Below, one piece after another: positions 3,006 through 53,244 of a DNA stretch of 64,000 nt. Positions within the stretch are counted from its first letter, which is position 1. The number at the start of each line of letters is the position of its first letter. A program made the position numbers and the translations under genes. The notes below the pieces were generated by a model. The model had not been told where the DNA came from. It made no database searches and was given only the letters and a program-made list of their open reading frames with translations. This DNA is from Flammulina velutipes (Eukaryota > Basidiomycota > Agaricomycetes > Agaricales > Physalacriaceae): assembly GCA_011800155.1 (NCBI GenBank), contig JAALGH010000011.1, positions 2,108,001 through 2,172,000 on the forward strand, in the 5' to 3' direction.

Positions 3006-3020
3006 GTACGGCCTGCGTAT
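3006..3020 (-). promoter_or_regulatory. SSP core-promoter dyad, SSP1
   Basis: Minus strand reads ATACGCAGGCCGTAC, one base short of a perfect ATACG-N5-CGTAT dyad. A TATAAG box starts at 3062, 42 bp upstream; the ATG is 11 nt downstream. Confidence 0.85.
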
Positions 3021-3870
3021 GAGTTTTAGAATGACATCTACTCTATCCCGTTCATTCTTATACAAACTCGAGTATATCCTAATACACTCAAATGCTGTAT
3101 TGGCTAACGATTCTCGCTCGGTATCATTGCCGCTCGTTGAGATGGTCACCGTTGTGATGGCATGGCCAGCTGTACTTGGTGTCGTCCTCCGCATCGTTGG
3201 GGTCCGATTTACTTATAGCATAGCGTAGTAATTCCATACAGTACTTGTAGTGGGTAATCGTGATAGTTCCAAATCTTCAGGGGGGTTGATCCACGGGTAA
3301 GATACCGTGTGAAGTTTGAACTTCTATGTACGTAATTTCCGTTTCTTTTCCGTTGGCGCCAACAAGGTGTCATTCGAAAGGTGTACTTCACTTGCATTTG
3401 AGGGAGAAACGATTCCGGGAGCCTCTATAGAGGTTTACTTGACCTGTCTCCGGTGCACGAATGTCAACTACTCTCCGTGCGTCGCTGACACTCGCCCATA
3501 CGCGGCGGCGATACATGTCGTACATAGATTTTAGCCATGGACAGAGCAGGCTCTCCCGCTACCCTTTTTTTGTTCGAGAATGACGGTTTGCGGCAGATGC
3601 CGAGACAGCGCAGGTCATTACCGGACTTCGTAATGTGGAGTATTGACCCAACTCAAAGAACCCCTCTTGTGCTTTAACCATGACTCCTACATTGCGCGCC
3701 GAAACCAATGGAAACGGTGTTTTTTCATTATTGTCCCATGAAAAGGCCGAAGATCCTACTCCGTATCTTTCCTTTTGGAGTACTTGGGGGGAAAGGTACG
3801 TCCTCAGTGCAAGGTATAATACACCTCCTAAAAATCCTGTCAGTGCATATGAAGCGATGTATGGAATATA
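3021..3870. other. SSP1 upstream flank, no gene
   Basis: This region is the duplicated upstream flank of SSP1. The stretch near 3308-3355 (CCGTGTGAAGTTTGAACTTC followed by ACGTAATTTCCG) recurs at about 6332 and 7526, and in the opposite orientation near 17050 and 20130. A plus-strand frame at 3680-3898 is open but has no recognisable motif. Confidence 0.5.
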
Positions 3871-4538
3871 TTGGAACGGTTTCAAGTCATTTCACTGATT
3901 GCGATTAATAGCTCGAACGGCCTGCCCTGTACGCCACCTCCCGATGTCGTTGTCCATGTTGGTGGCGAAATGTTCCCTTTCCACAGCCGCCTTCTTTATC
4001 ATGTCTGTCCCCACTCGGTCAACAGGTGGCCTCGCATCAATGACCGCAACATCGAATTCATCTGTCGCGGTCCCTCCCACTTTCGAGCGCTTCAGGAGTT
4101 CATTTACACGGGAAATAGGAGAAAGCTTTGGGACTATACTTTCGCTGGTGTGCCAATTGATAGCAGCCTGTGGCCCGAACGTCAAGACGATTTCATCCGT
4201 GCACTGAAGGGTTTAGATATCAGAGAGTTGGAAAATGCGGTGCACCGTATTCATGACTTTCTGTTTGTCATCGAGGCTGCGGTTACGCTGGACTGTTTCA
4301 TCGGGAGGCAGGCGAATTATGTCGTGTCTATAGCATGGCTGTATCTTGTTGTCCCGAAGGATCTGCAAAAACGGTGGGGGGATGAAGCGCGGAATGAACA
4401 TTTGGAAGAGTGAGTTTCGTTCAATCGTATATAAGGAAGTTATGTTGACGGTGGGATAGGCAAAACCGCAATGCCGTCGTACGGGAGATGAGGAATGTGG
4501 AGTATTGTATGCAGGGTTTGGACCTGGGGTCTGATTGA
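3871..4538 (+). CDS. BTB/POZ-domain protein
   Basis: Two exons, 3871-4409 and 4460-4538, encode 205 residues. The intron is GTGAGT...ATAG, phase 2. Residues 23-45 carry a BTB signature (PPDVVVHVGGEMFPFHSRLL), with ALQEFIYTG at about residues 75-85 as expected in the BTB fold. The C-terminal half is helical, which is common in short basidiomycete BTB proteins that act as protein-interaction adaptors. The start is uncertain: ATG 3871 gives 15 residues before the domain, and an upstream exon ending near 3907 is possible. A piece of the 3' end is duplicated at 15005-15120. The domain is clear; the partner and pathway are unknown. Confidence 0.6.
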
Positions 4539-5412
4539 ACTGTTTAATGGACGTGTACGCTGACAATGTGTTACTAACAATAAGACGAAGAATCGGAATG
4601 AACATCTCGTTATATCACGATGCCTTCATGTGGCTTCCTGGACGGACGGAAATTTCGAAGCCATGCAGATTGTCGACCGCGGTCAGCGAGTGTGTGTTTT
4701 TCAGACTGAACAAGGTGCAAGAATATGGAGAAGCTTCGTCTGAGGGCATTTCTCCGTTACTGGGAGCAATTAAAATGGCTTTCATCTCATTTTACAGCCC
4801 ACAAAAATGGTTGCATCCTTAGAAAAGCGCTCTGCCGCACCTGGTGGGTGCTCTCGAGCCCCGTGGACATTGCTGTCGGCTTGATAGGGATATATTGTGT
4901 GAAAGAAGAATGCGCTCTGTAGCGCCCATCTGCGATGGGTGCTACTGACATTCTACTCGATGACCAATATTGAGCGGTCTGTCGACGTCGAGACCGTTGC
5001 GTCGTCGTTGTCGTCGTCGTCGTGACGGCAAGTCCAAGTGCCAAAAAATCACACTGAACCTAAAACTTCATTAAAAGATAGACTGAGTATTTTTATGGCA
5101 GATGGCGGATTAATAACACGACAATCAGCTGCAGATCGACACCACATACGTCTGTTCATGCTCATTTATTAATATGCTACACTCATAACACTTGTATTTG
5201 ACCATAGCCTGTGTAACAACCATCAGACAACCAATATGCGCCACAAATAAAACGAGCAACCGACGGAAGCTTTGATTACTGCAGTACATCCGATGATCTT
5301 GATTCAAGCTACTTGGTTCGGTTGTATGGGGCAGTATGGGAGCGAGACGGCCGGAAATCAGGATTACAGCTATGCATACGTCGTACAACGAGTATACAAA
5401 CATAAAGCAGAT
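4539..5412. other. BTB downstream region, no gene
   Basis: The first part resembles DNA at about 15060-15300, downstream of the BTB fragment there, so it belongs to the same duplicated segment. A short tract of CGT trinucleotides lies near 5000-5025. Several open frames occur but none has a motif or paralogue. Confidence 0.4.
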
Positions 5413-5967
5413 CTATCTTCCTTTTATAGTCTCCTCCGACCCATCAGAGCTGCCTTCCGAGGACGATTCATCCTTGAAGAGAACGTAGTATGTAAATGAA
5501 CCCGTTAGCTCCCCGTTGTCATGCCCATAGGCGAGAATCGATTCCTCTGACTGTACCATACCATGCCCATTAGCAGAGAATATCAGACCAAATTGCCACG
5601 CACATTTGTTGTTAACCATCTATCAACATCAGACCAGGATTCTGTCGATTCGGCTGTCGCAGGTGTTCCGTTCCAATCACCTACAACAGTGAATATGGTG
5701 ACCTCGCCCGGTAGAAGCTTGAGGGTGATTTCGACAGCCTCGAGAGTATACTCGCAGTCGGCACTACTGTCCTTATCACATTCGTGGAACGTGACAGTCT
5801 TCTCTGTTTCCGCGCGCTCAGACAGGGAATGTGGACTATGCGGCAATGTTAGGAATTGCTGGCAGCCGATGGATATGGAGAAGAACTCTGTACCTAGCAC
5901 TAACAAGCAGCGCCGGTAGCAGCAAGGCGGATATACTGAGGAGTTTGAAGGACGATGTGAAGAGCAT
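5413..5967 (-). CDS. SSP2: small secreted protein, single module
   Basis: Exons 5967-5894, 5835-5604 and 5550-5413 encode 147 residues. Exon 1 (74 nt) is a signal peptide, MLFTSSFKLLS to LLVSA. The phase-2 intron and mature SPHSLSER match SSP1. Exon 2 has VTFHEC with a second Cys after DSSAD, an ITLKLLPGE strand and the VVGDWNG form of the GW motif. Exon 3 has LAYGHDNGE, YYVLFKDE and the tail SSDGSEETIKGR. The two Cys could form one disulphide. The intron-2 donor is again GTGCGTGG, with a GCTAATG branch site. Function is unknown; a secreted role is inferred. Confidence 0.8.
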
Positions 5968-5978
5968 GGTGAAATACA

Positions 5979-5993
5979 GTACGGCCTGCGTAT
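5979..5993 (-). promoter_or_regulatory. SSP core-promoter dyad, SSP2
   Basis: Minus strand ATACGCAGGCCGTAC; TATAAAAG starts at 6035 (42 bp upstream) and the ATG is 11 nt downstream. Confidence 0.85.
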
Positions 5994-6642
5994 GTGTTTT
6001 GGGATGATATCTCATGGATCTCGATTTCTTTTATACAAATGATGTTGTCCCCTCATAGCCACAAATGCTATGTTGGTTGACAATCGACGCTCGGAATGTC
6101 GGTCATTGATTGATCGACGTCGACGAGAGGGTCGCTCGTTCGTTGAGATAGTCACCGTTGAGATAGTCTCCGTTGCAATGGCAAGTCCAAACTGTTGCGT
6201 CGTCCTCCACAGCATCTGGGGTCCAATTTATAGCTCACCTATTGGCCAGCTCGTTTTATAGCAGTGCTGGTGGTTGGTATCGTGATGGTCTCGATTGTGT
6301 TGATCCAGGGTGAATATTTAGTATACAGTACCGTGTGAAGTTTGAACCTCTAAGTACCGCTTCTCTCCTATTCGATACGGTCCACTTTCATTTGAGGCAG
6401 AAAGGACGACTCAGCATGTACATTTATTCCGTCTCCAGAATATTGATCGAAAGTGAAATAAAAGGGCATAGCGACACTGTCTTACCAAAATGAGGAGTAC
6501 ATTGGAGCGGAGTGATCCGCTCAGACAGACTCAGAGGGAATTACAGGCCTCGAGCCCAATGATGGTGGATTGGATGTGAGAACATGATACGAGCTACGCT
6601 ACAAGGCTGAATCTACAACTACTATACTGTTAGAAAGCATAT
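5994..6642. other. SSP2 upstream flank, no gene
   Basis: Homologous to the flanks of SSP1, SSP3, SSP4 and SSP5. It includes the GTTGAGATAGTCACCGTTG stretch near 6143 and the AGTTTGAACCTCTAAGTAC stretch near 6339. No credible gene was seen. Confidence 0.5.
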
Positions 6643-7183
6643 CTAGCCCTTCACAGTGTCTCCCGACCCATCAGAATCCTCGAGGTCCTCATCAATCTTG
6701 AAGATAACGTAGTATGTTAGTTGTGAACCCAAGAGCTCCCGGTCGTCATGACCATAGGCAAGAACATACGGCTGGACCATACAATATCCATTAGCTGATG
6801 ATATCAGACCAAATCGACACGCACGTTTTCCCGTTTCAATGTCCGAGCTTTACTCAAGGACGTCATCGATTCAGCCCTGGCAGGCTGTCCCTTCCAACCA
6901 CCTTCAATGTCAAATTTGTCAGCCTCGCCTTCTCTCGGTATGAGCGTGATTGGGAAAGCATCCGGGCAGTGGGAACTATACGCCGAAACACATTCATTGA
7001 ACGTGACATGTCTGACTTCACCATTTCCCCTGCGCTCAGGTAGGGAATGTGGACTATACAGCAATGTTAGAACCTGTTAATTCGAAGGACACGATGAAGA
7101 ACTGCATACCTGGCACCAACAAGTAGAGCCGGTAGCATAAACGCGGCAACGCTAAGGAGTTTGAATGAAGATGTGAAGAGCAT
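6643..7183 (-). CDS. SSP3: small secreted protein, single module
   Basis: Exons 7183-7110, 7053-6825 and 6771-6643 encode 143 residues. The signal-peptide exon (MLFTSSFKLLSVAAF...VGA) is almost identical to that of SSP1. The mature part starts SPHSLPERRGN, has VTFNEC plus a second Cys (SSHC), ITLIPREGE, GGWKGQPARAE, then after the phase-0 intron VLAYGHDDRE, YYVIFK and EDSDGSGDTVKG. SSP1 and SSP3 look like a recent duplicate pair in the same orientation about 4 kb apart, with SSP2 between them. Function unknown. Confidence 0.8.
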
Positions 7184-7194
7184 GGTGAAATAAT

Positions 7195-7209
7195 GTACGG
7201 CCTGCGTAT
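7195..7209 (-). promoter_or_regulatory. SSP core-promoter dyad, SSP3
   Basis: Minus strand ATACGCAGGCCGTAC; TATAAG starts at 7251 (42 bp upstream) and the ATG is 11 nt downstream. Confidence 0.85.
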
Positions 7210-8116
7210 GTATTTTGGAATAACACTTACTGGATCCCGATCACTCTTATACAAAGGATATTATCACCTCATAGCTACAAAGGCTATGTTGGTTGACAAT
7301 CGACGCTCGGAATATCGGTCATCGATGTCGACGAGAGGGTCGCTCGTTCGTTGAGGTAGTCACCGTTGGGATAGCCGCCGTTGCAATGGCAAACTGTTGT
7401 GTCGTCCTCCACAGCCTTTCGGTCCAATTAGTGCGTTTGATTTCCTATTGGCCAGCTCTTTTCATCACATTGCGGCGGCGGCTGGTATCGTGATTGTTTC
7501 CACTGTGTTAATTCACGGTGAAGACACCGTGTGAATTTTGAACCTCTAAGTACGTCATTTCCGTTTCTCTTCCCATCGACGTATGCACTTCACTTGCATC
7601 TGAGTATGGAAGGACGACCCAGCATATACGTTCGTTCCGTTCCGTTTCCAGACGCTGCTAATCGCCCCCCGGGGGGAATAAAATGGCATAGCAACACGTC
7701 GACACCGTCTTACTAGAAGCATTCCTATAGAGGCTTACTTGATCTGTCGCCGGAGCGCGAATCAATTACTCTCCACGCGAGGCCTTCCTTCCCCAACGCC
7801 AACAGTTTGCAAGTGCCCGCCTATGCCCCAACAGGCAGACATGGAACCATCTGTCGACACCCCCAACCGCGTCTCTGGCTCCAAGGGTACCATCCACTTC
7901 AGCCGAACTGCCATACGGCTAGGCTCACGGTGAAGCAGTCTCGCAAGCGCTGCCTTATCGTCAAGGCAGTGTTTCCAAAGATTGAGCAAATAGAACAGTC
8001 ACAGGTCTCAAAGCATGCGTCGTATGTGACCTTAGAGGAGTAACCATTGTCAAAAATGATATTGAGATACAAGTCCCTACCGCAGAAGGTGAAATCGACA
8101 GTAGACCACTATTCCG
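7210..8116. other. SSP3 upstream flank, no gene
   Basis: Shares the duplicated flank blocks of the other SSP genes (near 7340-7400 and 7526-7575). The later part resembles sequence at the left end of the window. Only overlapping, unsupported open frames are present. Confidence 0.45.
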
Positions 8117-8611
8117 TTACGCCCGAAGGCGGAGAATGAGTCGCCTAGTCGATGCTGCCTGCAGTGGACACCAGATTATGTTCATATTTAGAACCGATGC
8201 GCATGCGACTCTAAGCAACGTTCCGTCAGTGTTTTCATGATCTAACGAAATGGGATACTCACATATTGTATTCGACGTTCCATTGTCGAAAAAGGAACTG
8301 GATCTGAAATCCGGGTGGCGGAGGTCAAAGTTGAGATCGTTCGCATATATTGAGAGACATGGATAGCACGTCGTGCTGAAGTTGGAGGCTAAGCAATGTT
8401 CCGTCAGTGTTCGTCCATTTCGAGAATTTCGGGCACTCACGTACCTTTCTATGTACACTATAAAGCTTAACATGCAGCCAATGAAGCAGTCGTCGTCGAT
8501 GATGGAATCGAGTTTCATTCCACCCGCGTCAGAGGGTCGATGGTAAAGTCGACGATCCAGCTGCTGCGTCGCAAATGAGTCCCGAAATAGACGGTAGTCG
8601 GCCCCTGCCAA
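8117..8611 (-). repeat. Relic X copy 2 (best preserved)
   Basis: A 164-codon minus-strand frame is interrupted by what reads as an intron, GTACGTGAG near 8444 to a CTTAG acceptor near 8391. The coding-like parts include IIDDDCFIGCM, FDLRHPDFRSSSFFDNGTS and ISLDHENTDG. DNA at 19300-19700 (+) shares the DDNFCIGC and PENTDTTLPKVACAS blocks. Copies differ by frame breaks, so I treat it as a decayed gene co-duplicated with SSP genes. No domain was recognised. Confidence 0.4.
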
Positions 8612-9243
8612 ATCGGCGGAGAAGATAGTGTACGACCCACGTCCAAATCCAAGGTCGCATTATGCAACGCTACCTCCCGACCTCCTCCTTCATCTTGCCG
8701 TATGACCTCCTCACTCCTCTCAAAGATCTGTTCTCATCTCCAAACATGGCTCGCAGATGCACGCGCAGGGCGTTCAGGCGGTTGTCATAGCCATTGTTCA
8801 AGTCCGGTTCGCCGTTAAAGAGGCTGTATGCGCGTCGGCGTTGGATACGGACGACGTGGGAATGAGCACGTCAATTCAGAAAGAGCACGTGTCTGGGGTT
8901 GGATGGGCCTGGCCTGGAGGCGCGAATAATGGGGGCGACGCTGCTGGGGCCAAATAGCTGGGATAAGGAAAAGAGGGGATGTTGCTTTTCCAAAGATATC
9001 ATGCACAAGGGTCGGGGGGGGGGGGGTGGCTGGATGTATGGCGTCGGTTAGCATCCTAGGAGTTGACAAGAACGTGGCATACCATGGACTTATGGAAATG
9101 AATGCGCCTTGATACGGGTGAATGTGCAGCTAGATGTGTATCTATCGGGGGTAGTGTTAGAGAGAGAGGACGTATAGACGATGAATGCACTTAGAACGCA
9201 CCTCCTGCGACTACGCGCGCCAGCACCAGTGTTCATTCAGCAT
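8612..9243. other. No gene seen; poly(G) tract
   Basis: No supportable gene. A run of G interrupted only by one C lies at about 9011-9030 and may be a homopolymer error site. Confidence 0.3.
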
Positions 9244-9454
9244 TCACAAGGAGAAGCTAACCAGAGAGGCTTGAGGACAGCCACACAGATTCAGTAGATC
9301 TTCCTTCTGCACGCCGTGGCGATTTAAGATTGATGATACATTGCGAGCAACGAAGAGACGCTCCCGGGTTTTGGACATGGTGGAAGGATGGTGACGAGGG
9401 TACGGCAAACTCCGAGATGGTTTGATGAGTTCGAACCAATCGACCATCCTTCAT
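9244..9454 (-). pseudogene. Fragment related to the 61-kb unrecognised gene
   Basis: The minus-strand frame contains EDLLNLCGCPQAS, which matches EERLVNLRGCPQAS near the 5' end of the gene at 61075-61875. The DNA GTGGCTGTCCTCAAGCCTC is shared. Beyond about 9244 the match is lost, so this is a short 5' fragment or an independent relic. Product unknown. From 9455 to 9902 I see nothing else supportable. Confidence 0.35.
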
Positions 9455-9902
9455 GGACGCTATGGGTTTAATTCAAGCGCAAGCTACGTGATCTCGAATC
9501 GACGACGACTGCTTGTGAACGTCCATTAGCACGTACTTGGACTAAGGACCAAGATTCCCTACTGCATGGGCCATTCTGGCGAATCATGTCCGACAAGCTG
9601 GGTACCTTCTTGGGAGTCGGAATAGATAGGGCGCAGCTTTGTGTGTCGTTTGTATCACTCCTCTTGTTAGCCACCTCATATAGTTTTACTTACATCCTTC
9701 CTCATATGACTATCAATGCTTCCATGCCAGTTTGGGCCGCCCATGCGTATTCCCTCCTCCTCTCCGAATAATCTTAGACGCTTCGTTCGCAATACTTAGT
9801 CGTATCTCAATCATGTACATGTTTGTTGTTGCTCTTAGCGGGGTCGTGATTACATGCATCGGAATACTGGAAGCCATCGACCTGGTACTACACGAAACTC
9901 CA

Positions 9903-10977
9903 CTAATCCATTAATCCCATTGCCTCCTTCAAGACCCTCTCGTGATCACCACTAGTCTTATTCACCTTCGTAATCCACTTATCGATCTTCTCCCTCCTTC
10001 CAAACATCAAAGCCTTTCTTCCCTTCCTTGCCAGTTGTTTATAATCATCCATCAATGATAACTTCAAACCATCCCCTCGCCACTTAGACGTGCCCTTCAA
10101 CTGAGCATCACGAACACATTGCACCTGCAATACACATCGAATTCCCTTCAGAAGTACACCACAGATGCCATTGTCGATGACCTCCTTGGAGTACTCTATC
10201 AACAATATTAGCGGGCCTCACAAGTAATAAGTGAGTCCGACCCGACTTGCCTGACAAAAAGATTCCCCGGGCCCGTTGACATGCATCGACCTCTTCCACA
10301 GCCTCTTTGATGCCCTTCAATGTCTGCCTTGCGGCCTGCTGATCCCGCGCCCAAAAAAGGACGATATTCAGAAAAGCAGTAGACATCAAGTACCTCTTGA
10401 TGACCTCCTCCGTGTTGTCGTCGTTAAACTGGGGGGTACGCAAGAAGTTCCGGATTATGCCGTACTTGTGTGGCGAGCGGTCCAGTTCATCGCGTAGAGA
10501 CCTGTACGTCTCGTACATACCCGTGCTGTGTCTCTCCCATACATCCTGTGATATTTGATCCTTGGCTGTATCGTTAACAAGCGCGTGGTAGCAGAAATTG
10601 CGCAGGAGTCGGTTGAGGTCACTGGTGAATGTAAAAAAAAAAGGGTTAGTCCGGCCGTTCTCAGAATGGACGTTAAGTAAGAGATGTTACATACATATCT
10701 CCATGAAATCAACGAGCGTGAGCGTGTCGCTGCATAGTTCAACCAACATCTGCGGAAACCCAACGGGGAGCCCAGTCCTGCATGAGACATGACGCAGTAC
10801 TTCGTATCGATGTCCGCCCTCCGGAAGTCTCGCTGAATGAAATCCGAGACGAAAGAATCAAACTCCGAGGTCGGCGTTCTTTGATTCTCGTCTTTCACGG
10901 CGAACTCCTTGCAAAAGTTGAGCATGAGCCACATCCGTACACAGGCCACTCATGAGATAAACTCACCTATTCAAGTG
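9903..10977 (-). pseudogene. HP1: decayed member of the HP helical family
   Basis: The locus aligns with HP2-HP4. Exon 4 is intact (10195-9903: IDNGICGVLLKGIRCVLQ, VQCVRDAQ, DDYKQLA, MGLMD then stop). Exon 3 ends at 10251 with a GC donor (G|GCAAGT) where the paralogues have GT. At the start of exon 3 the CGGCGCGCC acceptor region is replaced by a run of A (plus strand, about 10632-10641), so no AG remains. Exon 2 is frameshifted between MSHAGL and the GLP-V-GFP stretch. The exon-2 acceptor is deleted. Only a few bases of exon 1 survive near 10967-10975, next to an unrelated repeat. Several independent lesions argue for a true pseudogene rather than sequencing error. Confidence 0.7.
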
Positions 10978-11584
10978 TCTGCCTCGACTTCGGGTATGGT
11001 GGTGGTGCGAGAAGACGATTCTGCTGACACGTGCATCGCATGCAAGGCTCGTCTTTTGACCTGACGCCCATTTTCCATGTTAGATCCAGTTGCGCGAGGT
11101 TAAAGACGCCAGGATGTAGGATTAGATGGTTACGGCCGAAGATGCTCAAAAACCATCGACAACGGTCGCCGGGCACGTGAAGATGTAGCATCCATAGCTC
11201 TCGTCGGGTAGGTAGCAGGAACGAGGATGTGGCATCCCAAATCCTCCGGATGAAGGACGTATTGTACTGGTCAATGAGAAGATAGGTGCGTACTATTAGT
11301 ATTAGAGAGGACACATAGACGAAAGGTTTCCAACACACCTATTCCTCCTTCGCCGCATAACGTGTTCCAAGCGCAGAGGATCCCAGTATATGTTGATGAG
11401 CTCAGCTGGGCGATCTCTGGTAATGTATGCGTTGAATGGATCCGCCCCGAATACGGCGTGCGAAAGGACGATTCTGCTGACCACGTGCTCTGAATTTCGT
11501 CTTTCGACCTGAGACTTACAGGTTTCAATACTCCTGTTCGTCGTGTGGTACGGGGATAATTAAGTAGAAAACTGAAGACATCAT
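10978..11584 (-). repeat. Local tandem relic, two diverged copies
   Basis: Minus-strand segments at about 10995-11060 and 11450-11510 share a CACGTG-TCAGCAGAATCGTC-like run and a following CACCA/CACG-rich stretch. The same run occurs on the plus strand at 15470-15520 and 18290-18350. The frame at 11302-11484 contains FGADPFNAYI, which pairs with FEADPFNVFT near 15540. This suggests the remnants of one unknown protein-coding repeat in four places. Confidence 0.4.
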
Positions 11585-11682: not shown

Positions 11683-11780
11683 GTCCCTGTACACATTTGC
11701 GCCACTTTCATTCGAAAAGCAAAGCAAAGCATATACTTACATTAAACAGCTACACGAACATTACATCCCCATATGATACA

Positions 11781-17244: not shown

Positions 17245-17712
17245 ATGACCACTATCGCAACGGTGACTATCTCAGCGAACGAGCAACGATCGAGAGATTA
17301 CCAACTTTCTGAGCGCCAGGGACCAGGTGGTATTACTAGGCATCTCAAGCTCAATGGATATGATTCAGAAGGTCGAATGAGGGAATTCGATGAAGTTATA
17401 CTCGAACCGGTACAAGGCGAGGCCGATACGTTTATCGTTGTTGGTGACTGGCTGGGGACTCGTGCTCGAGCTAAGACGACAGAATCATCAAAGGTTTATG
17501 CAGACTTGGTAAATGAGGGACTCGGAGTGCGTAACAGTTTGGTCTGGTAGCGTCAACTGATGGATGTTGTATAGTCTTCCAATCTTCTTGCGTATGGCCA
17601 GGACGGCGCTGTATCTGTGGGCAGGACAACAAAGTACTACATTATTTATAAAGATGACAAGGAACGTGATGATTCTGATGACGGGTCGGACGTCACTGAA
17701 AAGGGAAGATAG
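17245..17712 (+). pseudogene. SSP4: leaderless SSP copy, 5'-truncated
   Basis: Exons 2 and 3 of an SSP gene survive (about 17303-17526 and 17575-17712): LSERQGPGG, VILEPVQGEAD, VVGDWLG, then LLAYGQDG, YYIIYKDD and an acidic tail ending KGR. TATA box, promoter dyad, signal-peptide exon and intron 1 are missing. The upstream flank (17190-17300, matching 20280-20375) runs straight into exon 2 at about 17300-17306. Relative to SSP5 about 260 bp were lost. A frame from ATG 17245 stays open across the splice (139 residues) but has no signal peptide. It is either dead or makes a cytosolic product; I favour dead. Confidence 0.7.
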
Positions 17713-20476: not shown

Positions 20477-20491
20477 ATACGCAGGCCGTAC
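20477..20491 (+). promoter_or_regulatory. SSP core-promoter dyad, SSP5
   Basis: ATACGCAGGCCGTAC; TATAAG starts at 20435 (42 bp upstream) and the ATG is 11 nt downstream. Confidence 0.85.
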
Positions 20492-21651: not shown

Positions 21652-21666
21652 ATACGCAGGCCGTAT
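21652..21666 (+). promoter_or_regulatory. SSP core-promoter dyad, SSP6
   Basis: ATACGCAGGCCGTAT, a perfect 5-bp inverted repeat with 5-bp spacer. ATAAAAG at 21610 is about 42 bp upstream; the ATG is 8 nt downstream. Confidence 0.85.
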
Positions 21667-24117: not shown

Positions 24118-24133
24118 ATACGCAGGCCCGTAT
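24118..24133 (+). promoter_or_regulatory. SSP core-promoter dyad, SSP7
   Basis: ATACGCAGGCCCGTAT: one extra C in the spacer, arms intact. TATAAAG at 24078 is 40 bp upstream; the ATG is 8 nt downstream. Confidence 0.8.
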
Positions 24134-25490: not shown

Positions 25491-25505
25491 ATACGCAGGC
25501 CGTAT
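25491..25505 (+). promoter_or_regulatory. SSP core-promoter dyad, SSP8
   Basis: ATACGCAGGCCGTAT, perfect dyad. TATAAAG at 25445 is 46 bp upstream; the ATG is 18 nt downstream. Confidence 0.85.
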
Positions 25506-27600: not shown

Positions 27601-28941
27601 TTACTGCTCATCCGTTAATCTCGTTGCCTCCTGCAAGGCGGCCTCTTGCTCTCCACAACTCGTATCCACCTTCTTTATCCACTTGTCAATCTTTTCCTTC
27701 CTTCCAAATGGCAGAACCTTTCTGCCTTCCTTTGCCAGATGCTGATAATTCTCGATCGCGGAGAACTTCGACTCATCTCCCCCCTTCCAAGTTTGGGACT
27801 TACTCCTTGCTTGAGCATCCCGTACACATTGCACCTGCAATACGAGGCGGATTCCCTTCAGAAGTCGGTCGCAGATGCCGTTGGAGATGGTCTTCCTGGC
27901 GTAGTCTAACAACGTCATGATATCAGCAGAACGCGCAAGTACTAAATGAATCGACTTACCCATGAAATATGTTCCCCGTTGACACGCATCAACCTCTTCC
28001 ACCGCCTCCTTGATACCCTTAAAGATCTTCTTCGCTGCCTGTTCGTCGGCTGTCCCCCGCAGAACGATGTCCAGAAAAGCCGTAGTCATCAAATACCTGT
28101 TAAGAACCTCATCCACGTTGTCATCGTTAAACTGGGGAGCACGCAAAAAGGCCATGATGACACCGTACGTTTGGTCCAGCTCATTCCGTAGAAGCTTGAA
28201 CGCCTCGTAAATGCTCTTGCTGTGTTCCTCCCATATATCAAATGTTATTTGATGGATGGCGGTATCTCTAACCAGCGCATGGTAGCAGAAATTGCGCAGG
28301 AGCTGGTTCAGGTCGCTGATGAATGGTTCGCGCGCCGCTGAAGAGTGATTAGTCCGATCGTTCTTTGAATGCACGTGAAACGATGCTACATACATGTTTC
28401 CATGAAATCAACAACTACGAGTGTGTCGCTGCATAGTTCGACCAGCTTCTGAGGGAACCCTTCGGGAAGCCCGCCTCTACCATGATGACGAATAACACAG
28501 CACCTCGTTTCGATATCCTCGCTCCTAAAATCATGCCGAAGGAAATCCTCGACGAAGACATTGAATTCCGAAATTGGCGTCTTTTGACCCCAACCGCTCG
28601 CGGCGAACTGCTTGCAAAAGTCGAACCTCATCACGCATGAGCCACATTTCAAGGCTGATGAGATAAACTTACTTGTTCAACTTGGGCCATGCTTTGGAGG
28701 GGCTTCCTTGATTTGTGGCGCACACCAGATGTAAAGACTCCTCCTTGTCTTTCTCAGGCGTCTTTGGCACCTGCGCTTTATCGGGAAACTTGGTGTACAA
28801 GTCTTTGATGAGCGTCTTCCACGGAGAGGGGTCCTGAGAGGGGCTCGTCGTAGTAGGGTATTTGCGGTGGTATTTAGATACACTTAAGTAGGTGATATCG
28901 ATGACAGTTGAAGCGTGAGAGTCATAGTAGCGGTTATACAT
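27601..28941 (-). CDS. HP2: lineage-specific helical protein
   Basis: Exons 28941-28673, 28626-28394, 28337-27960 and 27905-27601 encode 394 residues with intron phases 2, 1, 1, the same as HP3 and HP4. N-terminal landmarks: YLSVSKYHRKYPTT, DPSPWKTLIKDLYTKFPDK, DKEESLHLVCAT. Exon 2: FDFCKQFA, KTPISEFNVFVEDFLRHDF, KLVELC and VVDFMET. Exon 3: SARE-FISDLNQLLRNFCYH, RYLMTTAFLDIVLRG, KGIKEAVEEVDACQRG. Exon 4: ISNGICDRLLKGIRLVLQ, VQCVRDAQ and a Lys-rich helical end. The sequence looks all-helical, with no signal peptide or membrane segment. I do not recognise the family. Confidence 0.75.
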
Positions 28942-31584: not shown

Positions 31585-31599
31585 ATACGCGGGCCGTAT
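31585..31599 (+). promoter_or_regulatory. SSP core-promoter dyad, SSP9
   Basis: ATACGCGGGCCGTAT: arms perfect, one spacer change. TATAAAG at 31547 is 38 bp upstream; the ATG is 12 nt downstream. Confidence 0.85.
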
Positions 31600-33069: not shown

Positions 33070-33084
33070 ATACGCAGGCCGTAT
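33070..33084 (+). promoter_or_regulatory. SSP core-promoter dyad, SSP10
   Basis: ATACGCAGGCCGTAT, perfect dyad. TATAAAAG at 33024 is 46 bp upstream; the ATG is 20 nt downstream. Confidence 0.85.
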
Positions 33085-35805: not shown

Positions 35806-35820
35806 ATACGCAGGCCGTAT
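35806..35820 (+). promoter_or_regulatory. SSP core-promoter dyad, SSP11
   Basis: ATACGCAGGCCGTAT, perfect dyad. TATAAAG at 35770 is 36 bp upstream; the ATG is 12 nt downstream. Confidence 0.85.
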
Positions 35821-35832
35821 ATTGTCACCTCC

Positions 35833-38847: not shown

Positions 38848-38862
38848 ATACGCAGGTCGTAT
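38848..38862 (+). promoter_or_regulatory. SSP core-promoter dyad, SSP12
   Basis: ATACGCAGGTCGTAT: arms perfect, one spacer change. TATAAAAG at 38802 is 46 bp upstream; the ATG is 27 nt downstream. Confidence 0.85.
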
Positions 38863-42502: not shown

Positions 42503-42599
42503 GTTGATAGAGCTGATAGTAGCGGACAGTTGAGGTGAAAATGAGATGAGGAACTGTGATACTATGCGACCCAATGTAAGGCGTTATTTATACTGTTCA

Positions 42600-44893: not shown

Positions 44894-47019
44894 GATCGTT
44901 GGTGGGGTGAAGCGAATGTGAGGAGAACAGAGGGACGACGAAGATGGACTCCGAGAGAAAGACAAGAGAAAGGATGCAGCACAAAAGAGTAGGAGAGGCT
45001 GCTTAAATACCGTGCATGCAGCGTTGGTTGCAATGCAACGGTGAAGGGATATTCCATGTTTCCCTCGTAAAGTAGTTCGAAGGCAGAAAGGAGCCGAAGT
45101 AAGGCCTGATATGTATCTGCGGCGTAACAAGAGAACATATGCGTCCTTCGAGGATGTGGATGCCGTAGAAACGAGTCCCGGGCGTCACAGCGGACTCTTT
45201 ACAATCAGCCTACATTCAGCGAAAGGATACAATGGTAGATCTGTGCATAATCAGCAGATAGCAACCTCGAGGAAGATCTGCGGGGACTACCTCTGCCATG
45301 TTTTTCCTTCTTCAAGTTATGTCTTGTCTAAAACAGCAGACATCGAGGCTGCGACCGTCGCTTGCCGTTATCTTCACGCGAGTATCGAGCGTTGGAAGGA
45401 CGTCGTATTTCCTGGCGCCACTTCCGAGAGTTCTCAGTCCACAGGTTGCGTAAAGCGATGCGAAGATCGGAGTCGCAAGGTGGGTAGCGGAGCGCTGTCC
45501 ATGCTGAATTCCAAAGACGACATAAATGGAGATGTGATATTTGATGGCTTCTGTCGTTGGTCGTCGGCCAATGCGTCCAGGAGTTTGGGGGTGGCTGGTA
45601 GGCACGAAGCGAAGGCGCATGAGTCATGGTGTATGGTGGAATGGGATTTGGCCATATTGCCATGTAGATATTGGTCGTTCCGGGAAAGTTGGCGTACACA
45701 TGAGCCTTGGAGACAGGCATCTTTCAGGGCATGAGCAAAAAAGAAGCATGGACGTGGTGGACATGAGGTAGCTCGAGCGACTGTTTCAGAATTAGCAAGT
45801 TAATCGTTCTGAGCCACAGATGGCGTACCCCCAGCGACACACGTTTCGAGGTATCCAGCTCCTGGGACGCGGCGTCTAAAAGACGCAGATGTGGTCATAC
45901 GGCGCTAGCGGCGCTCGGATCGCCGTTGAGATCGACGGTTGTTAGCCAGCCGGGAAGAGCCAGTTGCATCGTATTGTGATTACGCGGATTAGTGTCTGAA
46001 TCCCAGAGTGAGCGCGTCCGTGGTGGATGGTCATCCTGGCCGAGCTGCTTGATGGTAGTCGTTGTCGTTGATCAGAGCGTCTCGCAGTTTGCCGTAATGG
46101 TCATCGTCTTGGGCATCAACAATATTTTTTAGTTTTCAGTTTTGTACTAGAGGCTTTTTGCAGGAATATATATTGGAAACCGATAAAACATACTACGCGA
46201 AGTTAAATGCAAAATGTCAACACATCATCTAACTGTCCAGTGCCTTTGAGGCCAAAAAGCGGCAAGCGGAGGGCGTGAAATGAGCTCGACGGGACAGTGA
46301 AGCACCAAGGTTTACTTGAGATCCCTTGAATGGGTGAAAATGGACTACTTCCTCTGCATACTCACCTCATTGAGTAGATGAGCTCTGGGTTTCATCAAGG
46401 CATATGATATGTACTAGCCTTTCCTTAATGTCGAAAAAGCTTGATATATATCGGTGCAAAAAGCCTCTACTGAGCGTTTTAAAACGTTGGACGAGTATCA
46501 CGCATGCGTCTGAGGTGCAGTGGTGGAACCATTTGTTAAGGACCCGCCGTATTCAAATTTGGGCATCCTTTCCCACGGTTGCTTTGGAATCGAACCTCAC
46601 CGATGAAACCACACGTACCTAGTTAAATCCAGTACGGCAGCCACGACATGACTCGTGTACCATCGACGTGAGCATGATTCAAGCTCCTAATTTTTGGTCG
46701 AATGCCCAGGTAGGATCTTTTTGCCTGTTCGCGAGCCCACCGATAAAATCCACCCATCTGTGGCTATTTCAAGTTCCGGATTGAACATATCTCCTTTCTA
46801 GCGTGTATAACTCTTTCTGATGATCTTTTTTGGGCGAACATCTAAGTGCCAACTCGCCATCCAGTTCCTCATACGTTCACACGGGTATGAGAATGCATTT
46901 CCACAAAACACAGCCCCATTTCCCCTCGCCCACCGTGTTCTATGTTTTGAGCCTTGTCGTTCACTCTCATCAGCCCACACTCCTTCGCTTCTTTCTGCCT
47001 GGCTCTTAGAATTAACTCT
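44894..47019. other. LPMO promoter side and spacer, no gene called
   Basis: A TATTTAA-type box lies at 45010-45004, about 110 bp above the LPMO ATG. A 207-codon plus frame at 45111-45734 overlaps long minus frames, and none has a recognisable motif. DNA at about 46072-46100 (GTCGTTGATCAGAGCGTCTC) is nearly repeated at 60950-60980 next to the unrecognised 61-kb gene. Confidence 0.35.
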
Positions 47020-50000
47020 ATGTTATCCCCTCTCGCCCTCGTTACATTCATCGGGATATGTGTGCTGGTGCACGCGCAGTATCTCTATCCCGCTTCCCTT
47101 CCCGCTGCTGTTCGTTCTCCCTACCTTAACGCCTACATCTCTATGGTTGGCCCTCCCTCTCAACTATGGACTCAGCACTGGAATTTGCAAAGGGTGAGTT
47201 TCCTCGCTGTCCTCACCTGTTTGCCCGACTTATTCGTATCAATATGCAGAACTTGGGATGGACTGGCTCCATTAGAGTAGACTATGAGCTGTATCAACTA
47301 TGGGGAGCGTTAGGGGATGTTTCAGATATCGTCAGCGTCGAAGTAACACCCACCCGTTCCATTATTCACTTGATTGCGGGATCTATGGATGTCAAAGTGA
47401 CATTCCTCAGTCCCATAGAGGTGCGCATCCTAATTTCTCTACTCCTCTCTTTTTTCATTGCGAATCCTAGCCCGACGATCTCGTCCTTCAGTCATTGCCA
47501 TTTTCATACGTGTACGTGGAAGCGTCGTCGAACGACGGGGAAACCCACTCCGTGGAACTATATTCTGATATTAGCTGTGGTATATCTGCTATGCATTCCA
47601 TAGTACTTACACATACTGATCATGACTCCAGAATGGATCTCCGGAAATGACGCGAGTGAGGCAACATGGAACACTACCGAGATTGATTCCACAACTTTTC
47701 ATCAGTGTATCCGACGTCATCCAGAGATTGCGGGCGAAATGAAAGACATGGTAGAAGACGGAGTGGTCTATTACGCTTTGTCTACGGTTTGTCTCCTGGT
47801 TCTCATCTCGAGCAGTAGATTGATGTCTCGCAGAGTGCCGCCAGTACTTATCGAATCGAGAATGCTACTATTGCTGGACCAACCTTTGGAATAGTAGGTA
47901 ACTTAAAGAACGGCAGTGCGAGTACAACGTCCAGTGCTATCCGTGATTCGGAGTGAGCGTCACCTCGTACTTGATGTGTTATATCGACCAACATCTACTA
48001 GCCATTACGTCGTTCTTGCACACGCTGTTCGCCTGGGTGATATCACGAACACCTCCTCCCCCGTAGTCTGGGGCATTGGCCTCGTTCGCGACCCCGCTAT
48101 CTTAATGGCCTCAACGTCGGGAAATTCAACTCGGCATTCATACTTCTTCACCGAGTATGACACTGTGGATGATGCCGTAGGCCCATCTCCGCTAATTTTA
48201 ATTCTCGCTCATTTCAAGATTTGTCTAGATTGGTTTCTTCATGGGAGATTTCAGCAATGTTCAACAACGCGCAATTGATCTTGACGAGAGAGTTCTCTCT
48301 GACGCAAGAGCAATATCTGAAGACTACGCTGATCTTATCTCCCTTTCGGCTCGTCAATCTCTGGCTGTCGACATCACTGTATCCAGAACTAGCGAAGGCG
48401 GTTTCAACACTTCGGATGTCATGACATTCATGCGAGATAATGGAAGCTCACGGTGAGTAGTTATCATCGCTCGCCTTGCGTGAAGATAATACTCACTTTA
48501 TTAGGCGCTCTAATCCTGTCGAGACGATATACGCGGCTTTCCCGATATATCTGTATTTCAACCCCAGCTGGGCTGGGTCGCTATTGTCGCCACTCTTGAG
48601 CTATCAATCCTCATCAATGTACTCTCATGACTACGCGTGTCCTGATTTAGGTGAGAAACAGTCCCGGGAGTTGAGTATATGTCTGAACGACTAGCAGGTG
48701 CCAATTACCCATATATCGACGGAAACAGCGATCCCGGCGCATCGCGTGCCATTGAAGGTGCGCCGGTGACAGGAATCTCGAATACCTACTAATCCAAGTT
48801 GCAGATTCTGGAAATATGCTCATTATGGGTTGGTCCCATGCTCGGTTCTCGGGCGACATCTCCATGTTGCATGAATATGTGCGAATTATTCTACCATTGC
48901 CTTTTATATGGACTAACCTGATCGTTCTCATACTTAGTATTCGACATACAAATCTTTCGCCGATTTTTTGATCAATAACGATGTCGTGACACCGAATGAA
49001 TTGTGCGTTGTACAGGCTTCTCCAAAGGATGTTTCTCATGTGATTCTAGCGAGGACGCGGATGGTTTGAAAACTGCGAACATGACCAACCTTGCGCTCAA
49101 AGGAATTATTGGAATCAAGGCAATGTCAGAAATCGCTTCCGCGGTTGGGGATGATGCGGATGCGAACTTGTATTCGGTACGTCGCTATGGTCATCCGTGA
49201 GATATACTGTACAGTGGCTAATTGGTATATCGTTGCAGAGTCAAGCAGACGAGTTCGTCCGAGAGTGGAAGAGCCTTGCGACACCAGAGGGTCATTTGGT
49301 GTCTACCTACAACAATCGTACTTCTTGGGCTTTGATATACAACCTGTTTGCAGACAAGTTGCTCGGAATGGGATTGATCGATGATTCTGTGAGCAATTTC
49401 CCCTCATCGGGGCTGTAATGCTGACGAAATATAGATTTATGCTGCACAAGACACGTTCTATGCAAACCAGGCCCAAATCGCTCAATCATTCTGTTTACCG
49501 TACGATAGCAGTGCTAACAACGAAGTCAAGTCGCGTACGTCTTTTGAAAATCTAACCGTCGTTCATTGACTTAATCCATATTTAGATTGGACTATGTTTA
49601 CAGCAGCCGCAGCGTCTGATACACAAGTACGAGATACCTTAATCTCAATGGTCCACACCAAGGCTGCGTCGAATGAGTCTGTGGGAGTCTTTCCATCGAC
49701 ATATAACGCCACCGATGGTTCGAGTATCTCTGGAGCGGCTAGCCCTGCACAGGGAGCCATGTTCGCCATACTATCGCTCAAGTAAGTCTTCTCTTAAAGT
49801 ACCTTTGAGTGATTTAATTCTATATAGTTTAAAGTCCAAGTTATCAGCGACTGACACAGATCCCAACGGTTCGGATTCACCAAGCCCTAGGAACATTACG
49901 GGCGTCATCGTTGGTGGCGTGGTTGGTGGCCTGGCCGTACTTGCTCTCATCGTGGGGGGTATCATATTCTGGAGGCGTCACCAACGCCGCAAGCACGGTG

Positions 50001-50446
50001 GCTACGCTGCGGGCTCTCAAGAATATGGCTGTTTTGGGCGCAAAGAGCGATCGGAGCCGCCGGAAGTCCTTGGGGAGGAATACAACGCGCAACCGTACAA
50101 CCTGTACCACGATCAAGTGTCGAATACTAACCTAGGACCCCCGTTCGTCATCGGAGCGACACGGGCAACGAGTCTCGATTCGTCGTTGGCTAATCCCGTC
50201 TCGCCGGTGCCTGCGATGTCCCCGCCGCCTCAGTCAGGGAAGGCGGGATTGATGCGTATGACGAACCCTACCCAACCTGAGGACCGGGGCGATGGATCAG
50301 CCGACGTGAGGTCTTCGACGAATGGATCAAGCTCGGATGGGCAGGGAACCTATTTGAGGAGCGAGGTTGAGCAGCTGTGGCGGGAGATGGAGGAGATGAG
50401 GGCAAAGATTCAGAATGGGTTTGAACCGCCTCCGCAGTATACATAA
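47020..50446 (+). CDS. Secreted, membrane-anchored glutaminase (GtaA-like)
   Basis: A multi-exon gene. Exons 1-3 are 47020-47193, 47250-47420 and 47471-47579; later introns are clear except one junction near 48150-48230 that I could not resolve in frame. Signal peptide MLSPLALVTFIGICVLVHAQ. Landmarks of the fungal GtaA/DUF4965 family follow: AVRSPYLNAYI, VDYELYQLWG, ITVSRTSEGG, RSNPVETIYAAFPIYLYFNP, YACPDLGANYPY, LMIMGW-type segment, NMTNLALKGIIGIKAMSEIA, STYNNRTSWALIYNL, and VGVFPSTYNATDG. It ends with a membrane span (GVIVGGVVGGLAVLALIVGG), a basic stop-transfer and a Pro/Ser-rich cytosolic tail. The role is extracellular glutamine hydrolysis for nitrogen uptake. Its 3' end is copied in inverse orientation at 33658-34480. 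Confidence 0.8.
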
Positions 50447-51000
50447 TCAATACTCGCTCCATGAAATTTCGATGAGCAGTAGGTTTGAATCTCTGATCAA
50501 TTATCGATAACCAGTTCGTTGAATGTCCCGTAGTTCTTCGGCCGTGACTTTAAAACAAGATGTGGCGCAAACCAAGCAACCACTATGACAAAGTGGAGAA
50601 TGAAAGGGAGACAGCGAATTAGGGAGTTTTGAGGAGGCGCCAGTGGTAGATACATGCGGTAGCAAGGCTTGGGAATGATAGAATCCTTGCTTTCAACGAA
50701 TTTGGAGGCTATTGACCAGCTGATGGAGTAGCAGCAGTTATTTCATAGTTGTTCAAAGAGGACGAACCGACGGATTTCGAAGAAGTGGAGTACTGGAAAG
50801 ATTGTGCTCTCTTCCTTGGAGGCCTTATGATTGGGAGTATTCCATGTTCGACATATGCCCATCAAGCGATAAATGTGGCGCGGGAAACATGTAAGCTAGA
50901 ATTCTCTTCGAATTGATGGCATGGCTCATGGTTACATAAATTACAATGAGCGCGCTAATACACGTCATAAAATCTGAGCCACTGGGAAATAAGGGAGTGA
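50447..51000. other. Glutaminase 3' flank
   Basis: Bases 50447-50780 are the source of the non-coding part of the 33.7-34.0 kb duplicate. No gene. Confidence 0.4.
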
Positions 51001-51112
51001 AACAAGAGTTCTCTTGTTCTTCCCGGAATTGTTTTCCAAGCTTAGCCGTGAGAAAACACACACGGACAACATATAAAAGGAGGGCATCTCTGTCGCCACT
51101 CCTCATCACCCA
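51001..51112 (+). promoter_or_regulatory. HP family promoter, HP3
   Basis: AACAAGAG-TT-CTCTTGTT at 51001-51018 is a perfect 8-bp inverted repeat. GTGAGAAAACACAC follows. TATAAAAG at 51072 is 41 bp before the ATG, with CATCTCTGTCGCCACTC between. Confidence 0.75.
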
Positions 51113-52454
51113 ATGTCTTACTATCGGCGCTCATCCGCCATCGATGTCACCCTGTTAAGTGTATCTCGATACCACCACGAATACCCTACCTCAATGAGCC
51201 GCTCCCAAGACCCCTTGCTCTGGAAGACGCTCGTCAAGGACCTGTACAGCAAGTTCTCCGACAAGGTGTGGTTGGCGGAGATACTCGACAAGGAGAAGGA
51301 TGAGTCTTTGTACCGGGTATGCGCCACATATGGAGACTCCATGTATTACCACTACACACGGTCTCATTTGAATAGGTGAGCGTAGTTGTTCGTCAGTGGC
51401 TCCCGTGTGGATGTGGCTCAACCATTTATAGGTTCGACTTTTGCCGGAGGTTCGCTATGAAAGACGAGGATCAAAGGACGCCGACCTCGGAGTTCGATCT
51501 CTTCGTTGGGGATTTCCTTCGGCATGAATTTAGGAGTGCGAATATTGATACGAGATACTGTGTGGCGTCTCGAGAGGGTAGAGGTTGTCTCCCTGCTGGT
51601 TTCTCTCAGATGCTGGTCGAACTGTGCAAGGACACATTCGCGGTTGTCGATTTCATGGAGTTATGTATGTCCCACTATCTTTTCCTATCTATCTGGGCTA
51701 ACTCTATACTCCCCAGCGGCGCGCCAGCCATTCACCAGCGACCTCGACCGGCTCCTCCGCAATTTCTGCTACCATGTATTGGTTAAAGAAACCGCCCAGA
51801 GCCAATTCTCGCTTGACGTATGGGAGAGACATAGTCGAAGTATGTACCGGACGTACAGCTATCTGCGCCATGAGTTGGACAACCGGCCACAAGAGTACGA
51901 TGTCATCCGGACCTTCCTGGGAAACCCCCAGTTCAACGACAACAACGCGGATGAAGTTATGAAGAGGTACTTGATGTCCACTGCGTTTTTGAATATCGTC
52001 CTGCGGGGAACGAAGGACAAGCCGGCCGCGAAGAAGGTTTTGAAGTACATTAAGGAGGCGGTGGAAGAGGTTGATGCGTGTAAACGGGCTACGTTCTTTC
52101 CAGGTGAGTTGAGTCATTCATTACTTGCGCGGTTTGCTAATGTTGCTGTTAGATTATTCCAGGAAGATCATCGGCGATGGCATCTGCGACCGACTTCTCA
52201 AGGGAATCCGCCTTGTATTGCAGGCGCAATGTGTTCGTGATGCTCAAACGAGGATTAGGGCCCAGACTTGGAGAAGTGCAGATGATTTGAAGTTATCTGC
52301 GATCGAGGATTATCAACATCTGGCGAAGGAGGGGTGGATGCCTTTGACATTCGGATGGAAGGATAAGATTGATAAGTGGGTAAAGAAGGTGGATGCGAGT
52401 TGTGAAGAGCATGAGGTGGCCTTGCTGGAGGCAACGGGATTAATGGATTACTAG
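51113..52454 (+). CDS. HP3: lineage-specific helical protein
   Basis: Exons 51113-51375, 51432-51664, 51717-52103 and 52153-52454 encode 394 residues; intron phases 2, 1, 1. Landmarks: IDVTLLSVSRYHHEYPTS, DPLLWKTLVKDLYSKFSDK, FDFCRRFAMKDEDQRTPTSE, VELCKDTFAVVDFMEL, FTSDLDRLLRNFCYHVLVKE, RYLMSTAFLNIVLRG, YIKEAVEEVDACKR, GDGICDRLLKGIRLVLQ, QCVRDAQ and GWKDKIDKWVKKVD. No signal peptide. It lies immediately downstream of the glutaminase gene. The family is unknown to me; the conserved YHHEYP, NFCYH and GICDxLLKGI blocks define it here. Confidence 0.78.
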
Positions 52455-52681
52455 GAATGGAATTAACATAGTTTGCGTACTAGTGGGGCGATGTTTTACG
52501 GTATTTGAATGCATGTAATTCACGACTCCGCTCCGAGTGATGGCAGACATTGAAAACGAGTAGGCGTCAAGAACTTGGTGTTCGAACTATATATGTACAT
52601 TGCCGTTAGACTCAGTCGAAGACAGACAAGTCGAGCACGTACATGGAACATGACGGGAGCAACTTCGCCATCCTTCTAATC

Positions 52682-53222
52682 CTAATCCCCATTCTCATTT
52701 ATGATGACCCACCATACCGGAGGACTCTGCCGATCTCTACCTGCTGCAAGCACCGTGTTATCACTGGCCTACAAAGAACATCTTTCAGTATCTTGGTTGA
52801 ATAATAAATGCAACTCACCTCAAATGCACGTGTAACTCTCTCGAGCCAAGCTGCGCGGTCCCCGTAGAATGGCATCGCCTCTGCGTTTCCTATACCATCC
52901 CACCCCTCTATAATTTCCCAACATACGCCGTCCCATCCATTGAGTGTCACTGGGGCGAATGTTTCGAATATGCGTTCAGTGGCATGTATATCTTCGCCAT
53001 TGGTCACTATCTCTTGGACGTTCGCCGTTCCGTATAGCGAGAGTCGCACGGCATCCTGAAGGACAGAAGGTCGAGGGCTACACGTCCCGCAAAGTGTCAG
53101 AAATACATGCAAAAATACCCAGAGAATGGCAGGACATACAGTTCGTGCCTGAGGGCGCTGGTGAGATGCGCTGATAGCGTGACTGAGCTGACAAGCTTGA
53201 GTGAAGACTGGAAGATGTGCAT
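52682..53222 (-). CDS. SSP13: outlying, diverged small secreted protein
   Basis: Exons 53222-53149, 53077-52819 and 52768-52682 encode 139 residues. Exon 1 is exactly 74 nt as in SSP1-6 and SSP8, with start MHIFQSSLKLVSS. Its donor would be GC (AG|GCACGA), a GC-AG intron, and the phase-2 acceptor leads to SPRPSVLQ. The module is readable: VRLSLYGTAN, APVTLNGWD, WEIIEGWDGIGNAEA at the GW site, then after the phase-0 intron VLAAGRDRQ and WWVIINENGD. The signal peptide is less hydrophobic than in the others. A degenerate promoter dyad lies 8 nt upstream of the ATG. It is 13 kb from the main cluster. Function unknown. Confidence 0.6.
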
Positions 53223-53230
53223 TCTATGTT

Positions 53231-53244
53231 ATGGTCCTGCGTGT
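53231..53244 (-). promoter_or_regulatory. Degenerate SSP promoter dyad, SSP13
   Basis: Minus strand ACACGCAGGACCAT keeps the CGCAGG core of the element, but the right arm is damaged and I see no TATA box in the expected place. Confidence 0.5.

Follow-up and report, generated by a model that had tools for sequence, protein, structure and literature searches.

A 15-base inverted repeat of the type ATACG-CAGGC-CGTAT recurs a short distance above the start codons of small secreted-type proteins in a 64,000-nucleotide stretch of the Flammulina velutipes genome (GCA_011800155.1, contig JAALGH010000011.1, here C12, positions 2108001-2172000; hereafter the window), which ends 30 kb short of the right-hand end of its contig in a genome of 38.1 Mb and 23 contigs. 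Our analysis of the window and of the genome gives good support to the view that this element forms, in the predicted 5′ leader of small secreted-protein mRNAs, a short RNA hairpin with stem NNACG/CGUNN and loop CNGGY. We further consider, with moderate confidence, that the leader hairpin is a Vts1/Smaug recognition element that would place these mRNAs under shared post-transcriptional control. Co-regulation of the large, fast-evolving sets of small secreted proteins of fungi is usually sought in promoters and chromatin; if it lay in a common RNA hairpin whose reader can be named, secretome co-regulation could be tested at the level of the mRNA.

Ten sites in the window match the element with at most one mismatch (all leader hairpins in Table 1 except that at 24118, an eleventh gene whose loop has one extra base), and 13 matches are found when up to three mismatches are allowed, compared with a mean of 1.18 and a maximum of 4 in 100 shuffles. 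Each of the 11 elements has an ATG 8-27 nt downstream that opens a hydrophobic, signal-peptide-like frame, and a TATA-like box that begins 36-46 nt upstream (at 33070, where two boxes overlap, counting from the first gives 48 nt). An initial annotation of the window had described the element, with at most one or two changes, 8-27 nt above the ATG of twelve such genes, with a TATA box 36-46 bp above it in eleven. The box spacing is borne out, and the element is confirmed at eleven genes; the twelfth site (53230-53244, minus strand, ACACGCAGGACCATA) is six changes off the consensus and may instead be a decayed version of the intron-split copies described below, with ATACGCTG at 53288-53295 followed by a putative GC-AG intron.

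The 15-mer ATACGCAGGCCGTAY, with Y at its end, occurs 14 times in the genome and the reversed pattern not at all. In the genome-wide scan suggested by the initial annotation, 22 sites have no more than one mismatch; 21 of them precede a signal-peptide-like ATG (including C8:7929 and C23:67886, which duplicate each other), the exception being C3:1377854. Allowing two mismatches gives 82 matches against 47 in the control, so this class is largely noise; the 11-bp core ACGCAGGCCGT has 39 matches (6 when reversed), 25 above secreted-type genes and 14 elsewhere. Searches with a looser core and a spaced TATA-like box gave 48 matches against 22 in the reversed control and, in a second looser version, 74 against 59 (overlapping boxes being counted twice), so that many are chance matches; the second version added C1:976568 (also labelled C1:976566) and C5:872072, and five other new matches that were read were none of the kind.

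From these searches we collected 49 genes with a signal-peptide-like start, 46 in a first set and 3 added later, which fall into about six families separated by eye from their first exons (24 genes in A, 8 in B, 10 in C, 5 in D, 1 in E and 1 in F). The first exons of A and C are alike, and the two may form one superfamily. The genes were chosen by hand, not blind, from pattern matches with a signal-peptide-like frame below, and all 46 genes of the first set have N-termini that a simple hydropathy score rates as strongly hydrophobic, a signal-like start being also the criterion for keeping them. We dropped one of the 22 sites with no more than one mismatch, the majority of the 60 with two, 14 of the 39 core matches, the C23 duplicates, and 2 of 12 and 1 of 17 matches from the first and second searches for split copies. 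C9:678156 (ATACACAGTCCGTAT, 59 nt above a signal-like ATG) was excluded as too far from the consensus, and C10:2423224, C9:2223860, C5:872072 and C1:174145 were kept despite a poor fit; elements with other stems would be missed by the searches. One sequence, ATCCGCATGCCGTAT, is identical at seven places, namely C2:847618, C6:608682, C8:186974 and four that were left unread among the two-mismatch matches (C8:211636, C8:288104, C10:126474 and C13:1319525), and probably belongs to a dispersed repeat that has nothing to do with the element. AAACG-CAGGC-CGTAT lies above the ATG of a different secreted-type protein at C10:2318791, apparently one without an intron after the signal peptide.

One line of evidence on the nature of the element comes from 15 distinct genes in which a putative leader intron of 47-61 nt cuts it at one place, between loop positions 3 and 4. 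The intron signals are canonical (GTRNGT ... AG, usually with a CTRAY-like branch site), and the predicted exon junctions, marked here by a slash, read for example ATACGCTG/GCCGTAT (C8:9061), ACACGCTG/GCCGTGT (C3:166536), ATACGCAG/GTCGTAT (C8:1410130) and TTACGCAG/GTCGTAA (C8:1438555). Searched without a branch-site requirement, the split pattern has 17 matches in the genome and none in the reversed control; 16 lie above a signal-peptide-like ATG (two being the C23 duplicates) and C6:2939022 does not. A control with permuted exonic halves, in which CpG was preserved, matched only at a single repetitive place, twice and with overlap. An earlier, differently drawn search gave 12 matches and none reversed. 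Ten belong to secreted-type genes, among them C1:174145 (loop TCGGC) and a C23 duplicate; the other two, C3:1216505 and C6:2939022, do not. A stem of at least four contiguous pairs forms in the spliced version of all 15 genes and in the unspliced, contiguous version at the 3′ splice site of none, three of the four pairs having been fixed beforehand by the search patterns. At C3:166536, for instance, the arms are ACACG/CGTGT when spliced and TAACG/CGTGT in contiguous DNA. Near-identical copies of two of the split-element genes, with the same spacing, are found at the start of C8 and in part of C23 (C8:7929 and C8:9061 versus C23:67886 and C23:69018), which suggests a duplicated chromosome end.

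The arms of the element also change together. A second, unrelated-looking family (C5, C7, C8) carries AGACG-CAGGC-CGTCT in seven genes at the same place, with both arms altered; the arms at C12:2106312 are AAACG/CGTTT, and AGACG-CAGGT-CGTCT lies above yet another secreted-type protein at C1:976568. Across 43 distinct aligned element sequences, 93.0% of cells are paired versus 85.0% after shuffling (score 0.174 versus 0.044; 0 of 500 shuffles), 11 cells have both sides changed versus 2.4 (0 of 500), and sliding the partner by 1-3 columns reduces pairing to 54.9% or less; these shuffles ignore the relatedness of the genes. When the set is thinned to 27 rows (one per family and element type, plus three), pairing is 90.4% versus 84.1% and the score 0.142 versus 0.044 (0 of 500). 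Position by position, in the 48 genes whose element is 15 bases long, Watson-Crick pairing at 2-14 is seen in 46, compared with a mean of 29.3 after shuffling, and in 22 of 24 when each family-by-type is counted once (shuffled mean 14.7; shuffle fraction 3e-5). This pair occurs in all four Watson-Crick forms and is Watson-Crick in 2 of the 14 core matches outside secreted genes. The inner four pairs, three of which the searches had fixed in part, are Watson-Crick or G-U in 45 of 48 genes and all five are Watson-Crick in 30; the outermost pair, 1-15, gives no covariation signal, so the supported stem is one of four pairs, and the five-pair dyad is ruled out as the selected unit.

Sequence conservation is concentrated on the element. 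In family A (253 pairs from 23 genes) the element is 0.906 identical, compared with 0.595 in the 30 nt upstream, 0.592 in the next 30 nt and 0.557 for shuffled upstream sequence, these identities coming from gapped alignments, which makes the random level high; the 20 nt downstream of the element and the first 60 nt from the ATG are 0.636 and 0.689 identical. When family A is compared with family B, identity is 0.802 for the element, 0.564-0.582 for the flanks and 0.563 for shuffled sequence. Flanks above the random level are seen in family D (30 nt upstream, 0.693 versus 0.867 for the element) and family C (20 nt downstream, 0.705 versus 0.867). Motif and flank have thus not decayed equally by pairwise identity, and the claim of the initial annotation that selection acts on the element is supported.

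The loop reads CNGGN in 45 of the 48 genes, with A, T or G at position 2 and C or T at position 5 (CAGGC 25, CAGGT 7, CTGGC 7, CTGGT 5, and CGGGC, CAAGC, CAGCC and TCGGC once each). The first loop base was left open in the first split search and in the TATA-spaced search with 48 matches, and the fourth also in the latter, so loop conservation is not wholly a matter of ascertainment. The Smaug recognition element (SRE), which is bound by the SAM domains of Smaug, Vts1 and SAMD4, is given as a loop CNGGN(0-1) in an excerpt of one report (PMC2573929) and as CNGGN or CNGG in an excerpt of another (PMC9893680). Our element resembles it in its short stem, its CNGGN loop and the freedom of loop positions 2 and 5. 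It differs in that its ACG/CGT stem is nearly invariant, that it is common to about six secreted families, and that in 15 genes it is paired only after predicted splicing. The short hairpin in the 5′ untranslated region, one option raised by the initial annotation, is the best fit to the spliced-only pairing, the covariation and the CNGGN loop. Among the papers listed in searches of an open-licence library, judged by titles and the opening parts of abstracts, none describes this element.

SAM proteins with the residues that contact RNA are encoded in this genome. There are three SAM_2 matches, on C1, C3 and C4, the first of which looks like Ste50. The C4 and C3 proteins match solved Vts1 chains (E 3.1e-18 and 5.1e-19) and carry, besides the SAM domain, the Pfam Vts1 domain above its cut-off. 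Of the RNA-contact residues named in an excerpt on Vts1 (R464, K467, Y468, L496, G497, R500 and K501; PMC9893680), placed by hand on the aligned motifs, the C4 protein keeps 7 of 7 and the C3 protein 6 of 7 (K501 to R). The C3 gene (C3:1051186-1052134) is a second, divergent Vts1-like gene beside that on C4, and the nearest named relatives of its product, among 120 listed of 280 matches, are from Hymenopellis (59% identical) and Armillaria (51-52%), both Physalacriaceae. A Smaug-family SAM protein predicted to be able to read the element is therefore present in the genome.

We envisage that transcription starts slightly below the TATA-like box and that the leader so made carries the hairpin, in 15 genes only once the leader intron has been removed. 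The sequence signals that bear on its presence in the mature mRNA are a TATA-like box 28-90 nt above the element in 40 of the 46 genes of the first set and canonical intron signals in 15 genes. The SAM domain of one or both Vts1-like proteins would then bind the CNGGY loop, and the bound message would be less stable or less translated until this control is lifted, which would join unrelated-looking secreted-protein genes into one post-transcriptional regulon. The effect of such binding on the mRNAs is proposed here by analogy with yeast Vts1, which, in the excerpt of one report, causes messages to be deadenylated and degraded and has the eIF4E-binding protein Eap1 as a partner (PMC3468468); in the basidiomycete Cryptococcus, an excerpt states, tagged Vts1 moves to P-bodies on a heat shift (PMC5017699). 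The yeast pathway (Ccr4-Pop2-Not, Eap1) would be a likely reading mechanism because the fungus has Vts1-like genes, but here there are two, one of them divergent. More tentatively, it is possible though doubtful that the full arrangement is a dedicated secretome regulon in which a leader SRE shared by unrelated families is read by the diverged second Vts1 and, in a subset of genes, is completed only by splicing. If so, Vts1 would act there only on spliced mRNA, through a recognition element that an intron splits in the gene and that comes into being where the exons are joined, and such copies would offer an unusual natural test of an element acting as mature RNA.

Several observations weigh against a leader hairpin read by Vts1. 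Three loops (CAAGC, CAGCC and TCGGC) break the CNGGN rule, and one gene has a six-base loop, CAGGCC, beyond the four or five bases that have been published. The near-invariant inner stem ACG/CGT, a feature that is in part ascertainment since most searches required it, is not something that Vts1 is known to need. Pair 1-15 is Watson-Crick in 32 of 48 genes against a shuffled mean of 30.4. In the 27-row set the slide control is weaker, because a slide of +2 has 8 double-changed cells versus 5 for the structure, with a score of 0.120 versus 0.142. Two kept genes pair badly, C5:872072 and, at pair 2-14, the family-E gene, and not all genes have a TATA-like box above the element. The folding energy of -0.9 to -3.6 kcal/mol (seven strings) is weak and not unusual compared with shuffles; the relevant part of a review notes that stabilising the SRE stem lowered affinity (PMC11499389). 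Known SREs, as far as the excerpts describe them, lie in coding or 3′ regions, in contrast to the 5′ leader position here. Finally, among 14 family-A genes found with two exon-piece queries the element is present in 11 and was not found at C6:3014495, C12:2194772 and window position 17245, where the stretches scanned above the ATG are also free of further CNGG hairpins with at least four pairs. The statement that every such gene has the element therefore does not stand, and its presence in all family members is ruled out.

A leader hairpin that works without Vts1, either through another RNA-binding protein or as a direct obstacle to scanning near the cap, is a reading that we regard as rather unlikely but take seriously. 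The split copies and the covariation are silent on which protein reads the hairpin, the conserved ACG/CGT stem could add to the specificity, and the position of the element relative to the TATA-like box suggests a cap-proximal site in family A. Cap proximity is not universal, however, because the element lies further from the box in family D (64-68 nt), and a hairpin of the energies given above is weak as a bare block to scanning. The fixed and free positions of the loop follow the SRE pattern, and intact Vts1-like SAM domains are encoded, both of which favour Vts1 as the reader.

The initial annotation preferred a core-promoter or initiator-type element, or the site of a dimeric regulator, and a DNA element of this kind, be it an initiator, a downstream element or a transcription factor site, now seems quite improbable. 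Like core-promoter elements, the repeat has a fixed orientation and, in family A, a roughly constant and narrow distance from the TATA-like box (33-48 nt in the 22 of 24 genes where a box was scored), and its inverted arms would suit a dimer; the 64-68 nt spacing of family D fits less well. Unlike them, it is interrupted by an intron in 15 genes and changes its arms in complementary fashion. With the halves 47-61 bp apart in the DNA and intron sequence between them, there would be no single site for a dimer on DNA or a core-promoter factor, whereas in the mature mRNA there would, and a contiguous dyad of four pairs, present in the genomic DNA of the unsplit genes, is lacking at the 3′ splice site of the 15 split genes; on the strength of these copies we disfavour a DNA dyad or promoter element. 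One finding complicates the argument and counts against the RNA hairpin. At some leader introns (ATTCGCAG, TAACGCAG and ATATACAG at C8:7929, C8:9061, C3:166536 and others) the 3′ end is similar to the element's left half. Several split genes consequently have in their DNA a contiguous but imperfect copy as well; the closest has 1 mismatch (C8:7929), and there are 2 at C8:9061, C1:137734 and C10:8106. The leader intron looks as though a tandem duplication around the element had produced it. At C1:137734 and C10:8106, however, the intronic left half of the contiguous copy has drifted (ATTCTCAG) whereas the exonic left half, CTACGCTG, has been kept.

A linear RNA target, for a small RNA or a single-strand-binding protein, with the inverted arms incidental, is more improbable still: the high conservation of the core ACGCAGGCCGT and the lack of covariation at pair 1-15 are in its favour, but it does not account for a pair 2-14 in all four Watson-Crick forms, nor for a loop that varies at the two positions that are free in the SRE. 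That the element is a functionless residue of common descent or of intron insertion or loss is hardly credible, since, for all the similarity of first exons in families A and C and the resemblance of some intron 3′ ends to its left half (CAG/G being a usual splice-site context), it is far better conserved than its surroundings, whether genes of family A are compared with one another, in which case identity over the 60 nt upstream hardly exceeds that of shuffled sequence, or with those of family B.

Table 1 Leader hairpins and related features in the window (positions are those of the window).
Feature	Position	Strand	Context
Leader hairpin ATACG-CAGGC-CGTAC	3006..3020	-	TATA-like box 42 nt upstream; ATG 11 nt downstream
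Leader hairpin ATACG-CAGGC-CGTAC	5979..5993	-	TATA-like box 42 nt upstream; ATG 11 nt downstream
Leader hairpin ATACG-CAGGC-CGTAC	7195..7209	-	TATA-like box 42 nt upstream; ATG 11 nt downstream
Open frame of relative, element-free upstream region (negative case; no clear signal-peptide exon)	17245..17550	+	
Leader hairpin ATACG-CAGGC-CGTAC	20477..20491	+	TATA-like box 42 nt upstream; ATG 11 nt downstream
Leader hairpin ATACG-CAGGC-CGTAT	21652..21666	+	CATAAAA box 43 nt upstream; ATG 8 nt downstream
Leader hairpin, six-base loop, ATACG-CAGGCC-CGTAT	24118..24133	+	TATA-like box 40 nt upstream; ATG 8 nt downstream
Leader hairpin ATACG-CAGGC-CGTAT	25491..25505	+	TATA-like box 46 nt upstream; ATG 18 nt downstream
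Leader hairpin ATACG-CGGGC-CGTAT (loop base 2 changed)	31585..31599	+	TATA-like box 38 nt upstream; ATG 12 nt downstream
Leader hairpin ATACG-CAGGC-CGTAT	33070..33084	+	Overlapping TATA-like boxes 46/48 nt upstream, others 71/81; ATG 20 nt downstream
Leader hairpin ATACG-CAGGC-CGTAT	35806..35820	+	TATA-like box 36 nt upstream; ATG 12 nt downstream
Leader hairpin ATACG-CAGGT-CGTAT (loop base 5 changed)	38848..38862	+	TATA-like box 46 nt upstream; ATG 27 nt downstream
Possible decayed split copy, assignment uncertain	53230..53295	-	ATACGCTG, putative 51-nt GC-AG intron with TACTAAC and CGCAG, then GACCATA; right arm unpaired

Ten window frames gave no Pfam match above the curated cut-off, and the named database matches of one window frame are from mushroom-forming fungi; the secreted family has 5 unnamed matches at E <= 0.01, from a query that was an alignment of single-exon pieces, so that full-length relatives may fall outside the length limit. 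The relative at 17245 may be broken. Four stretches of the window (10108-10934, 27601-28631, 51113-52454 and 59352-60384) look by eye like at least four copies of another gene family, on both strands and among the secreted genes; two of its frames had no match in Pfam. The secreted proteins of the 21652 gene and its neighbours seem, again by eye, to hold a short module, ..VVGGW.G..A.A.., that is repeated in a later open stretch.

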